Below, piece by piece: positions 60,206 through 64,000 of a DNA stretch of 64,000 nt. Numbering within the stretch: the stretch's first letter is position 1; every line of letters begins with the position of its first letter. The stretch is from assembly GCA_003023695.1 (NCBI GenBank), contig PXYW01000011.1, forward strand, positions 1 to 64,000. The letters run 5' to 3'. Under the pieces are notes generated by a model, which was given only the letters and a program-made list of their open reading frames with translations, did no database searches and had not been told where the DNA came from. A program made the position numbers and the translations under genes. This DNA is from Sulfobacillus benefaciens (GTDB lineage: Bacteria > Bacillota > Sulfobacillia > Sulfobacillales > Sulfobacillaceae).

Positions 60206-60238
60206 CAAAAAACCGCTCCAGCCAACCAGCTAGAGCGG
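60206..60238 (-). terminator. Intrinsic terminator of the sHdr-linked operon
   Basis: On the minus strand CCGCTC...GAGCGG, extended by AGC/GCT with one mismatch, forms a stem followed by TTTTTTG. It lies 20 bases after the GAF gene stop codon and closes the operon that enters from the right edge. Confidence 0.85.
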
Positions 60239-60257
60239 CACCAGCAATATTCTCACA

Positions 60258-60761
60258 CTACTTCCATGTCTCAGTCAAAATGTCCGCAACATCGGTCATC
60301 ACGGCCAATTCTTCAACCCCTAGTCCGTCGGTCTTTCGTGATTGTACATCCAGCACCGCTACTACGCGGGATTCAATCACGAGGGGCACCGCGGCCTCCG
60401 AACGGGTATTGGGAACCACCGATAAATAGCCCGAAAAGCTCTTTACCCCGTGAACTAGTTGTACACTCCGTTCTCGTGCAGCCAACCCCGCCACGCTTTG
60501 CCCCCATTCTAAGCTTAGCGGAACTGGCGGCCCTTGAAACGGGCCCAGCATCAACGGCCGCTCCGGTGCGTCTACTAGATAAAAGCCAGTCCAGGCGACC
60601 TCGTTGCCGTTGACATTGAGGACCTGAAACAAAAGCGCGGCTATATTAGCCATTAGGCCGATTTTACCATGTCTTTGCGCTGCCCACCGGCGCACTTGGG
60701 GCAAAACAGCCTCCAAGGCGTCCATGGGGCTCAGTGTTCCCGAATTGTCCTGGTCCACCAT
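60258..60761 (-). CDS. fRMsr-like GAF protein lacking the catalytic cysteines
   Basis: 167 residues, a single GAF domain of the free-methionine-(R)-sulfoxide reductase group. MANIAALLFQVLNVNGNEVA, WTGFYLVDAPERPLMLGPFQ and TRSEAAVPLVIESRVVAVLD, then VQS, match family landmarks. The three positions that hold the catalytic Cys in the family read otherwise: PPVPLSL (for ACVRI), SVAG (for GVCG) and YLSVV (for HIACD). Reductase activity by the known mechanism is therefore excluded. Its ATG overlaps the dsrE stop (TAATG), so it is the last gene of the sulfur operon. A ligand-binding or sensory role is possible. Confidence 0.78.
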   Translation of the reverse strand: MVDQDNSGTLSPMDALEAVLPQVRRWAAQRHGKIGLMANIAALLFQVLNVNGNEVAWTGFYLVDAPERPLMLGPFQGPPVPLSLEWGQSVAGLAARERSVQLVHGVKSFSGYLSVVPNTRSEAAVPLVIESRVVAVLDVQSRKTDGLGVEELAVMTDVADILTETWK

Positions 60762-61138
60762 TAAAATGTAATCACCACGTCGGATTCCAACGCCATTTCG
60801 TTAACGGCGGTACCTCCGACCACACCATCATTTTCAATTAAATCGTCTACGGTACAGTCGTTAAGGTCTAAACTTGGCGCACAAACATAGAACTTAACCC
60901 CCGCTTCACGAGCCTGGTCAATAAAGAACTGAAGATTGGATCCTTCACCGCCTTCTTTAACAGTAAGTGTTTCTGCGAGTCCCTTTTTTAACAACCCTGT
61001 GGCCTTAATGGTAAAGACCATCGACACGTCATGGTCCATCAAGGCCGCAGTGGTAGCCAAAAAGAACGGTGAGGCCGACCGATATGCTACCTCCGGACCG
61101 GTAGTCAAAATGTAAAGATACTTTTTGGTCTCATCCAT
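60761..61138 (-). CDS. dsrE: DsrE-family sulfur carrier
   Basis: 125 residues. YLYILTTGPEVAYRSASPFF, then LATTAALMDHDVSMVFTIKA and EAGVKFYVCAPSLDLNDCTV, follow the DsrE/F fold, with Cys residues at the places where the family carries persulfide (VCAPS and NDC). With TusA it would pass sulfane sulfur toward the sHdr complex. AGGGGGGACA lies upstream. Its TAA overlaps the ATG of the GAF gene by one base. Confidence 0.83.
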   Translation of the reverse strand: MDETKKYLYILTTGPEVAYRSASPFFLATTAALMDHDVSMVFTIKATGLLKKGLAETLTVKEGGEGSNLQFFIDQAREAGVKFYVCAPSLDLNDCTVDDLIENDGVVGGTAVNEMALESDVVITF

Positions 61139-61160: not shown

Positions 61161-61412
61161 CTACTTCAACCGTCGGATTACAAACCGAAAAACGTCACCG
61201 TTTTGTTCTGCTAATAACAGCTCGTTGCCCGTAGAGCGAGCCCAAGCCTTAAAATCGGCCATTGCTCCGGGATCAGTCGCAATAATTTCCATGTTTTGTC
61301 CGATTTCTACGGTGGAGATTCCTTTCTTTGCCCGAATTACGGGCATCGGGCACTTCAATCCGGATGCATCGACCTTGAGGGCAATCGTTTCTACGCTGTT
61401 TTCTTCACTCAT
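61161..61412 (-). CDS. tusA: TusA-family sulfurtransferase
   Basis: 83 residues. VDASGLKCPMPVIRAKKGIS contains the C-P-x-P motif whose Cys carries the persulfide; the rest (NMEIIATDPGAMADFKAW) is the standard fold. TusA delivers sulfur to acceptor proteins; in sulfur oxidisers it feeds the sHdr system. GGGAGG precedes the ATG. It lies between the lipoate ligase and DsrE. Confidence 0.9.
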   Translation of the reverse strand: MSEENSVETIALKVDASGLKCPMPVIRAKKGISTVEIGQNMEIIATDPGAMADFKAWARSTGNELLLAEQNGDVFRFVIRRLK

Positions 61413-61436: not shown

Positions 61437-62522
61437 TTATCGGGAACTTAACGTCGACGTTTCAAGTGCCTGCGCATTAAGAAACGCCTGCCGAATGTTT
61501 TCTGCAGTCACTCCCCAAATGGTTATCTGTTTCAACAATTCATCCGCCGCCCTCGCCACCAGTGCGTCGTCGACAGGTTGCCCAACCAGTTTCTGTTGAA
61601 ACCTTTCAATCTTGCTGATATCCATCGGGGTGATAAAAAAGTCTCCAGTCAATGCCACATCATCAAATACATCCTGGCGGGTGCGAAACACAAGGCGAAT
61701 CAGGCCACCCGGCGCCTTGTAAATGCCTTCGTACAAGTGGACGTCTCCGAGAATTTTCACCCCCGGCTGCACCAACCCTCGTTCTCCCTGATAAACGAAA
61801 TCCGGATCAAATAGTTTTTGGGCATACACCTCCACCAAATCCCACTCCTCGCGACTGAGAAACCCGTTATGAATGTCCTGACCCAAAGCCGCTGCAAATT
61901 CTTGAACCAGCAGGTGGGTGGCATCCTCCCGAGATGGTGCCGCATTTCCCAATTCTCGGCGGACAGTGGTCATATATTCGTCAAGACTTTGAACCATTTT
62001 GTCCCGAAATTTTTCCGACGGAACCCGCAACACGCGAGACATCGCCACAATGTCAAAGTCCATGAGGATAGATCCGACGATGACCGTTGACCGCGCGATT
62101 TGAGCAGCTCCGGTTCCCCCAATTTTTCGGGGTCCCACCACAATGTCGTTCACCGGCCGATGAGAAGCTGCCACCCCCATTTTTCGATAAGCCAACACCG
62201 GAGCTTTGAGAATTTCATGGTATAAAGCATCTACTGTTCCAGTATATGACGGAAGCAACAGGTGCCAGAAGATCTGATCATGGTCGAGGTAGACCGCCCC
62301 ACCCCCAACCATGCGCCGACCGACGGCAATGCCCTGTTGCTCGCAATAATCCCGATCAATTTCACGACTTGCCAACTGATGATATCCAACACAAACATAA
62401 GGTTGTTCAGGACTCACGGTCACCAACACGGGTTCAGACCCTGTTGCCATGCTTTCGGCCAATGCGTGATAGACCGCCTGTGAATACGTGCTTGGTACTG
62501 TGCCAAGATTAAGATAACGCAT
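61437..62522 (-). CDS. Lipoate-protein ligase, sHdr-associated type
   Basis: 361 residues. The LplA core is present: GRRMVGGGAVYLDHDQIFWH and the Lys motif KIGGTGAAQIARSTVIVGSI, then LMDFD. The C-terminal 110 residues (PGVKILGDVHLYEGIYKAPG; DDVALTGDFFITPMDISKIE) correspond to the accessory (LplB-like) part, here in one chain. It would attach lipoate to the two LbpA proteins encoded just upstream. GGAGG nine bases before the ATG at 62522 sets the start, overlapping the LbpA gene by 14 bases. Confidence 0.83.
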   Translation of the reverse strand: MRYLNLGTVPSTYSQAVYHALAESMATGSEPVLVTVSPEQPYVCVGYHQLASREIDRDYCEQQGIAVGRRMVGGGAVYLDHDQIFWHLLLPSYTGTVDALYHEILKAPVLAYRKMGVAASHRPVNDIVVGPRKIGGTGAAQIARSTVIVGSILMDFDIVAMSRVLRVPSEKFRDKMVQSLDEYMTTVRRELGNAAPSREDATHLLVQEFAAALGQDIHNGFLSREEWDLVEVYAQKLFDPDFVYQGERGLVQPGVKILGDVHLYEGIYKAPGGLIRLVFRTRQDVFDDVALTGDFFITPMDISKIERFQQKLVGQPVDDALVARAADELLKQITIWGVTAENIRQAFLNAQALETSTLSSR

Positions 62523-62994
62523 CGGTGCCAACCTCCAGATCTTCCGCCATCGGTGCACACCGCATGCAGGTAATGCCCGCTTCTTGAAGTTTTGGTCGAT
62601 AAAATGTCGCCGCTTCGGATCCTATTTTGAGATCTTCCCGGTGCCAATCAGAAGGTTCTGGCCGTATCTCAACCAGCCAGCCTTCCCCATAAGGATCGCG
62701 GTTGATGAGGTTTGGATCCTTTAACACCCGAGAGTTTACGTTGACCACCGTGCCCGCCACCGGTGCCGGAAACGGTCCTACCCATTTTCCGGATTCAATG
62801 GTCGCCAAGCTTTTTCCGACAGGTTGGGTTTTTCCTGCCCGAGCCCGCACATGCAACACCTTTCCGGACCGGGTTTGGGCAGGGTCTGTCATCCCTAACC
62901 TCAAAAGGCCATTGTCAAGCGGGAGGATCCATACGTCTCGCTCGACGTCGAACCATAAGTGATCGGGAAAGTCACAAGCAAACACCATGGACAT
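62509..62994 (-). CDS. Lipoate-binding protein, second copy (LbpA, GcvH-like)
   Basis: 161 residues, a GcvH-like fold. The lipoyl-lysine site is TIESGKWVGPFPAPVAGTVV, and DPYGEGWLVEIRP follows. The C-terminus has a CMRCAPMAEDLE tail with two Cys not seen in GcvH of the glycine cleavage system. No gcvT or gcvP is near, and sHdr-type neighbours are, so it is a sulfur-oxidation carrier. Tandem with the first LbpA gene. Confidence 0.87.
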   Translation of the reverse strand: MSMVFACDFPDHLWFDVERDVWILPLDNGLLRLGMTDPAQTRSGKVLHVRARAGKTQPVGKSLATIESGKWVGPFPAPVAGTVVNVNSRVLKDPNLINRDPYGEGWLVEIRPEPSDWHREDLKIGSEAATFYRPKLQEAGITCMRCAPMAEDLEVGTDALS

Positions 62995-63025: not shown

Positions 63026-63472
63026 CTAACTCGCACTGCCGCACTGAATGCCATCTGCTGATAATTTTTCCCGATAGGCTTCAATGCCGCTAGGCCCGGT
63101 AACTAATTCGGCCATATCTGCCTCCCAATTGGCAGGCTGCACCCGAATAATCCATCCGGTGCCGTACGGATCCTCGTTTATCGTACTGGGTTTCCCCTTC
63201 AGATCCTCATTTATGGCTATCACGGTGCCTGCTACTGGCGTGGGTATCGATCCCACCCACTTGCCGCTTTCCAAAGTTCCCGCGCTTTTTCCCCGCGCCA
63301 GGGTCTTGTTGAGTGACCGTAAGCTGACCACAACAATTTTCCCCGCCAGACTTTGCGCGACATCTGTCATGCCGACCAGCACGGTGCCATCCGCCTCTGG
63401 TTTTGCCCACACATGTTTCTCCACCCAATAATATAAATCGTCTGGCAGATTGCACCCATTGACCTCGCTCAT
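63026..63472 (-). CDS. Lipoate-binding protein, first copy (LbpA, GcvH-like)
   Basis: 148 residues. NGCNLPDDLYYWVEKHVWAK starts the fold; the lipoyl-lysine site is TLESGKWVGSIPTPVAGTVI. INEDPYGTGWIIRVQP and a final GIQCGSAS complete it, with one Cys near each end as in LbpA proteins. In sHdr sulfur oxidation the lipoyl group carries bound sulfur intermediates. AGGAGG six bases before the ATG. It lies 28 bases downstream of the Hdr-like gene. Confidence 0.88.
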   Translation of the reverse strand: MSEVNGCNLPDDLYYWVEKHVWAKPEADGTVLVGMTDVAQSLAGKIVVVSLRSLNKTLARGKSAGTLESGKWVGSIPTPVAGTVIAINEDLKGKPSTINEDPYGTGWIIRVQPANWEADMAELVTGPSGIEAYREKLSADGIQCGSAS

Positions 63473-63499: not shown

Positions 63500-64000
63500 T
63501 TACCGCGCAACGACCAAGGTGTCCGGCACCCCAAGACCCGCCGCTTCAGCCAACAGTTCCGCCATATCCACAACTTTGAGTCGACCCTCGTTGCCCGTCG
63601 AGGCCACTGCAGCGCTAAACATCGCCACATCTTTGGGGCAGGCCACGACAAAATGCGTCACTCCCTCAAGGGTTAAGGCTTCGCGAATACGTTGGTCTGC
63701 AGGTCTTTCTTTGATTCCTACTTCCTCCATCCAAATCCGTCCACCACCCGCACCACAGCAAAAGCTGTTTTCCCCATGGCGTGGCATTTCCACCAAATCA
63801 ACCCCAACACGTTTCATTAATTCGCGAGGGGCGTCGAAGATCCGGTTCCACCGTCCTAGGTAACAGGGATCATGATAAGTGGCACGTATCCCCAAGGGTT
63901 TTAACTGAAATTTCCCCTGGTCAATTAAATCCAAAAAGGCTTCCGTGTAATGCTTGACAGGTCGATGAAATCCATACTTCCCGTATTCGTTTTTCAGCGC
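63500..64000 (-). CDS. HdrB-like CCG-domain subunit, partial (sHdr)
   Basis: The C-terminal 166 residues; the gene continues past the window edge. HDPCYLGRWNRIFDAPRELM and NSFCCGAGGGRIWMEEVGIK form the cysteine-rich CCG motif of heterodisulfide-reductase B/D-type subunits, which hold a non-cubane Fe-S cluster. The last motif reads VACPKDVAMF, so the usual second Cys of CPxC is missing. With LbpA, TusA and DsrE downstream, it is best taken as an sHdrB subunit of the sulfur-oxidising complex. Confidence 0.75.
   Translation of the reverse strand, partial: ALKNEYGKYGFHRPVKHYTEAFLDLIDQGKFQLKPLGIRATYHDPCYLGRWNRIFDAPRELMKRVGVDLVEMPRHGENSFCCGAGGGRIWMEEVGIKERPADQRIREALTLEGVTHFVVACPKDVAMFSAAVASTGNEGRLKVVDMAELLAEAAGLGVPDTLVVAR

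Follow-up and report, generated by a model that had tools for sequence, protein, structure and literature searches.

The last gene of a sulfur-oxidation operon in Sulfobacillus benefaciens encodes a GAF protein derived from free-methionine-(R)-sulfoxide reductase (fRMsr). It has lost the catalytic cysteines and D143, has gained W86, E97 and Q101, and is the fixed neighbor of dsrE in the type II sHdr loci of its family and of Alicyclobacillus tolerans. The gene is encoded in the 64,000-nucleotide stretch analyzed here (contig PXYW01000011.1, positions 1 to 64,000; hereafter the window) and probably represents a hitherto undescribed working component of the sulfur-oxidation system. Our best explanation, which we hold to be on balance probable from comparison of the sequences, is that in the type II sHdr of Bacillota its product assists the DsrE/TusA relay as an accessory GAF protein without catalytic function.

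The genes at the end of the window are collected in Table 1. Past the etfD-like gene, the contig continues with etfA, etfB, sHdrB3, H, A, B1, C1, and dsrE2, where the sHdr and etf names were assigned by position and domain, and sHdrB3 is a fused CCG/4Fe-4S protein. According to the published rule, a type II system is recognized by shdrC1B1AHB3 and etfAB within one syntenic cluster (PMC11582611). Since all of these genes are found here in a single syntenic cluster, the operon belongs to type II and corresponds to what has been termed 'hdr cluster II' in Sulfobacillus (PMC4378227). The preliminary description of this DNA had pointed to a TAATG overlap with dsrE and to an operon terminator behind the GAF gene, and both were located: stop and start share one base, and a terminator-like hairpin with a 12-bp stem and a T-run follows the GAF stop codon. 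Overlaps of one or four bases between dsrE and the GAF gene occur in 11 of 21 family loci, which suggests translational coupling of the two genes. Two further proteins of the contig, both encoded outside the window, are without a Pfam match. A divergent ORF upstream of dsrE2 (L062 17016-17435; contig C13 73015-73434) is conserved in most type II loci that were fetched far enough upstream and is a possible regulator, and the protein at the sHdrH position (L062 12513-13238; contig C13 68512-69237) evolves at about the same rate as the GAF gene.

Table 1. Features at the 3' end of the window, given in window positions.
Feature	Position	Strand	Evidence
Terminator-like hairpin 3' of the GAF stop; 12 pairs, 4-base loop, T-run	60212..60239	-	Fold (-24 kcal/mol, z -2.6)
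Non-catalytic fRMsr-like GAF protein, 167 aa, ATG start, zero Cys; last gene of the type II sHdr operon	60258..60761	-	Homology and alignment
TAATG, dsrE stop and GAF start sharing one base	60759..60763	-	Sequence
dsrE; usual DsrE Cys86 plus extra Cys95 typical of GAF-linked DsrE	60761..61138	-	Pfam and alignment
tusA, sulfur carrier	61161..61412	-	PF01206
lplA-like lipoate-protein ligase	61437..62558	-	PF21948
lbpA2, GcvH-like lipoate-binding protein	62509..62994	-	Pfam and LbpA2 search
lbpA1, GcvH-like lipoate-binding protein	63026..63472	-	Pfam and LbpA2 search
CCG/4Fe-4S protein (etfD-like), C-terminal part	63500..64000	-	Pfam; in the contig the gene extends to 65497

The fRMsr fold had been proposed from the sequence alone, and the homology is real. 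Strong phmmer scores were obtained with fRMsr-type structures only (PDB 3ksg, E=1.2e-19; YebR, E=2.7e-14), and a profile of 22 orthologues, 21 from the family and one from A. tolerans, finds the Neisseria fRMsr at 1.3e-25. An AlphaFold2 model built from five sequences (mean pLDDT 76) ranks fRMsr structures first in both Foldseek (E 2.5e-11) and VIA-align (Z 18-21). The Pfam GAF model PF01590 reaches 23.1 bits, above its cut-off of 22.4, PF13185 remains with 24.7 bits below its cut-off of 28.6, and no NCBIfam family fits any of the GAF copies. Together the 22 copies make up one side of a 100/100 branch that separates them from 43 fRMsr-type sequences. The motifs LGPFQ and SEAAVPLV, named at the outset as landmarks of the fold, hold for the window genus, genus g9, and Alicyclobacillus only and are lost in 10 of the 22 copies.

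A joint alignment of the 22 sHdr-linked copies with 19 reference fRMsr sequences reveals what became of the active site. C84 and C118 are cysteines in all 19 references and in none of the 22 copies, and no copy has a cysteine at C94 either; the window protein carries P81, A91, and V115 in these three columns. This bears out the earlier claim that all three catalytic cysteines are replaced, and a dsrE-adjacent homologue that still possesses them was sought and not found among the 22. The epithet 'cysteine-free' applies to the window protein and to three other copies, which contain no cysteine whatsoever, but not to most orthologues, whose cysteines are located at other, non-catalytic positions. 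D143, which we take to be a substrate-site residue of the methionine sulfoxide pocket, is kept in none of the 22 copies, each of which has Q, R, or K instead. Because the catalytic cysteine columns and D143 are replaced, the known fRMsr chemistry, as judged from the alignment, cannot run in the window protein. The catalytic Cys118 and its partner Cys84 correspond to Cys84 and Cys60 in the numbering of the Thermoplasma enzyme (PMC6211008).

It might be argued that the protein is still an fRMsr, with relocated cysteines, that protects methionine during sulfur oxidation, and some copies do have other conserved cysteines (in GSC and LDC of genus g9). Given the four copies entirely devoid of cysteine and the universal loss of D143, we regard this as hardly credible. 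Moreover, fRMsr proteins with the catalytic cysteines have genes of their own: the window genome encodes one with C84 and C118 away from the operon, a separate fRMsr is found in most genomes, and that of A. tolerans is of the three-cysteine type. The fRMsr paralogues of the window family also lack C94 and resemble the two-cysteine 'type II fRMsr' of Thermoplasma (PMC6211008). Methionine sulfoxide reduction would then be performed by the separate fRMsr rather than by the GAF protein.

For the distribution of the gene, 34 genomes of the family were studied, in which type II loci were marked by DsrE and LbpA2 searches. Such a locus is present in 22 of the 34 genomes. The region past dsrE is assembled in 21 type II loci from eight genera, and in all 21 the GAF gene is the next gene directly 3'; the type II locus of G026, whose contig ends inside lplA, was not counted, and the GAF copy of L077 was overlooked by BLAST but aligns. 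None of the 12 family genomes without a type II locus, several of them 95-100% complete, contains the GAF gene, giving a Fisher p of 2.8e-9 for co-occurrence that is uncorrected for the relatedness of the genomes. In the same-genus pairs G001/G002, G007/G008, and G011/G012, type II locus and GAF gene are both present or both absent. An orphan dsrE2-tusA-dsrE island in G007 (L082, G007:C210, 9480-10904), a genome without type II, includes neither sHdr genes nor a GAF gene.

Outside the family, genome contigs were scanned with sHdrB3 for type II loci. The locus of A. tolerans (L094) shows dsrE followed by the GAF gene in the same order, and more DsrE2-, LplA-, and LbpA-like genes lie immediately after the GAF gene there (L094 18565-21272). 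No second case of dsrE-GAF was found among 59 genomes of the order of A. tolerans. Within the phylum, a sample of 398 genomes yielded no member of the GAF family outside the window's family, the remaining matches at E<1e-28 being fRMsr with catalytic cysteines, and an sHdrB3 search of 299 genomes gave no further type II-like match above 42% identity. Lone GAF copies elsewhere were also looked for; apart from the A. tolerans gene itself, there are none in the 59 genomes, and there are none in the 398. No GAF match was obtained within at most 10 kb per side, some contigs being shorter, for 26 type II loci from Chloroflexi, Actinobacteria, Deltaproteobacteria, Bacteroidota, and others, and the type I sHdr loci of the family genomes (L084-L091) have no GAF gene. 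Since type I loci and these 26 type II loci do without it, sHdr chemistry as such does not depend on the GAF protein. The preliminary description had spoken of a conserved GAF partner of sHdr, for which absence beside dsrE in all other sHdr loci would have been adverse; adjacency in every readable type II locus of the family and in A. tolerans upholds the statement for one branch of type II, that of the Bacillota, but not for type I or for the other phyla.

Two arrangements of the operon are found. The window genus, genus g9, and A. tolerans share the order B3-etfBA-etfD-lbpA1-lbpA2-lplA-tusA-dsrE-GAF, and the other genera of the family show B3-lbpA1-lbpA2-lplA-tusA-dsrE-GAF-etfBA-etfD. The GAF gene directly follows dsrE in both, even where etfBA-etfD has moved. 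Ten family loci have it inside the operon, between dsrE and etfB, which rules out that its position is an accident of the operon end. The same loci speak against a decaying fRMsr duplicate stranded at the operon end, a reading that we consider very improbable. The GAF gene does evolve faster than its neighbors dsrE and tusA, and the copy of G031, from the window genus (L063, G031:C21, 1-571), has lost one base around codon 32, which shifts the frame, and carries a different C-terminus close to where the contig ends; this is either decay or an assembly error. Yet the gene is retained in eight genera with W86 invariant, and its dN/dS of 0.06-0.18, in pairs with usable dS, indicates purifying selection comparable to that on LplA, EtfA, and the H protein, and weaker than that on DsrE and TusA.

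The constant neighbor has a feature of its own. Of the 22 GAF-linked DsrE, 21 possess a second cysteine, C95, which is missing from all 18 DsrE whose type II loci, in other phyla, lack the GAF gene. Common descent may be all that lies behind this correlation, because the GAF-linked DsrE may be a single lineage. The spacing of their two cysteines, Cys-X8-Cys, is close to the Cys-X7-Cys of DsrE3A (PMC4175335). For Metallosphaera, an exchange of thiosulfonate groups between DsrE and TusA has been described, as has a complex of the two (PMC4175335).

Conservation within the GAF protein points to one segment. W86 is found in 22/22 copies, E97 and Q101 in 21/22 each, none of them conserved in fRMsr, and G87, G92, and A95 between them are nearly invariant as well. 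The columns of the methionine sulfoxide pocket, presumably formed in fRMsr by W62, Y66, E125, D141, and D143, are kept less well: W62 and E125 persist in 12/22 copies each, Y66 in 21/22, and D141 is retained in 11 copies and exchanged for E in 10. Most pocket residues differ between the two main GAF clades, and a single ligand common to all copies therefore seems unlikely. One clade retains the old substrate pocket in part and the other has largely lost it; the 86-101 segment persists in both, and DsrE is the constant neighbor. This would favor conservation of a protein surface rather than of a ligand common to all copies.

Two further roles have to be weighed. GAF domains commonly bind small ligands, and the protein could be a sensor that takes up a sulfur-oxidation metabolite in its pocket (an organic thiosulfonate, for instance, or a sulfonate, or a lipoyl or octanoyl compound) and signals to the pathway or its regulator, the link to DsrE being operon membership only. 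Of the former methionine pocket, W57, Y61, E122, and D138 persist in both the window genus and genus g9, and the exchange of D143 for Q, R, or K alters the charge of the pocket. We nevertheless rate a ligand sensor as unlikely: W57, GPF, and E122 are gone from 10 of the 22 copies, leaving no single conserved pocket, and the protein has neither an output domain, as judged by Pfam, nor a DNA-binding part. The poor conservation of the pocket argues as much for a protein-binding role as for the 'sensor or ligand carrier' envisaged initially. A different, cysteine-independent enzyme acting on a sulfur or lipoyl substrate is improbable. The new, nearly invariant E97 and Q101 beside W86 could serve such an enzyme; against it, they are the only polar side chains in a conserved set made up mostly of Gly, Pro, Ala, and Trp, in which no catalytic triad or metal motif was seen.

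For the accessory protein that we prefer, the following course can be proposed. A soluble, non-enzymatic GAF protein would be made together with DsrE, and its surface around residues 86-101 would bind the DsrE/TusA sulfur-relay module. It would hold this module in place or switch it, possibly when the remodeled GAF pocket is occupied by a small ligand. More tentatively, with rather less than even confidence, we suggest a dedicated subunit or regulator of Bacillota type II sHdr, whose disarmed methionine sulfoxide reductase fold might bind the two-cysteine DsrE directly and gate the hand-over of sulfur to TusA and LbpA.

Little work has been done on type II sHdr, and how the lipoate-binding protein and the sHdr complex receive sulfur by way of DsrE and TusA is poorly understood. 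With its constant place next to dsrE in eight genera, the GAF gene is a concrete, testable candidate for an extra component in bioleaching organisms. It also exemplifies how an enzyme fold, once its catalytic cysteines were gone, was recruited to the operon of a pathway which itself works with thiols. Published gene-cluster definitions and NCBIfam hold no model for it. The published Sulfobacillus, sHdr, and DsrE literature that we examined makes no mention of the GAF gene, which other papers could name; the paper on hdr cluster II of Sulfobacillus shows 'hypo' genes only and never mentions it (PMC4378227).

Compared with known systems, both fold and pathway are familiar, and the protein represents a new variation within them rather than a system of a new kind. 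With fRMsr/YebR (PDB 3ksf, 3mmh, 1vhm, 1f5m; Thermoplasma type II fRMsr 4mmn) it has whole-length fold and sequence homology in common, and the window copy shows their WxGFY, LGPFQ, SE, and P landmarks; it differs by the absent C84, C94, and C118, the replaced D143, its own W86/E97/Q101 signature, and its fixed place beside dsrE. The ligand-binding GAF domains of sensor kinases, phosphodiesterases, and NifA share the fold (VIA Z 13-17), whereas the window protein stands alone, without an output domain, and is nearer to fRMsr in sequence. All core genes of the type II sHdr-LbpA cluster (PMC11582611; PMC4378227) are present in the window contig, and the published definition of this cluster does not name the GAF gene.
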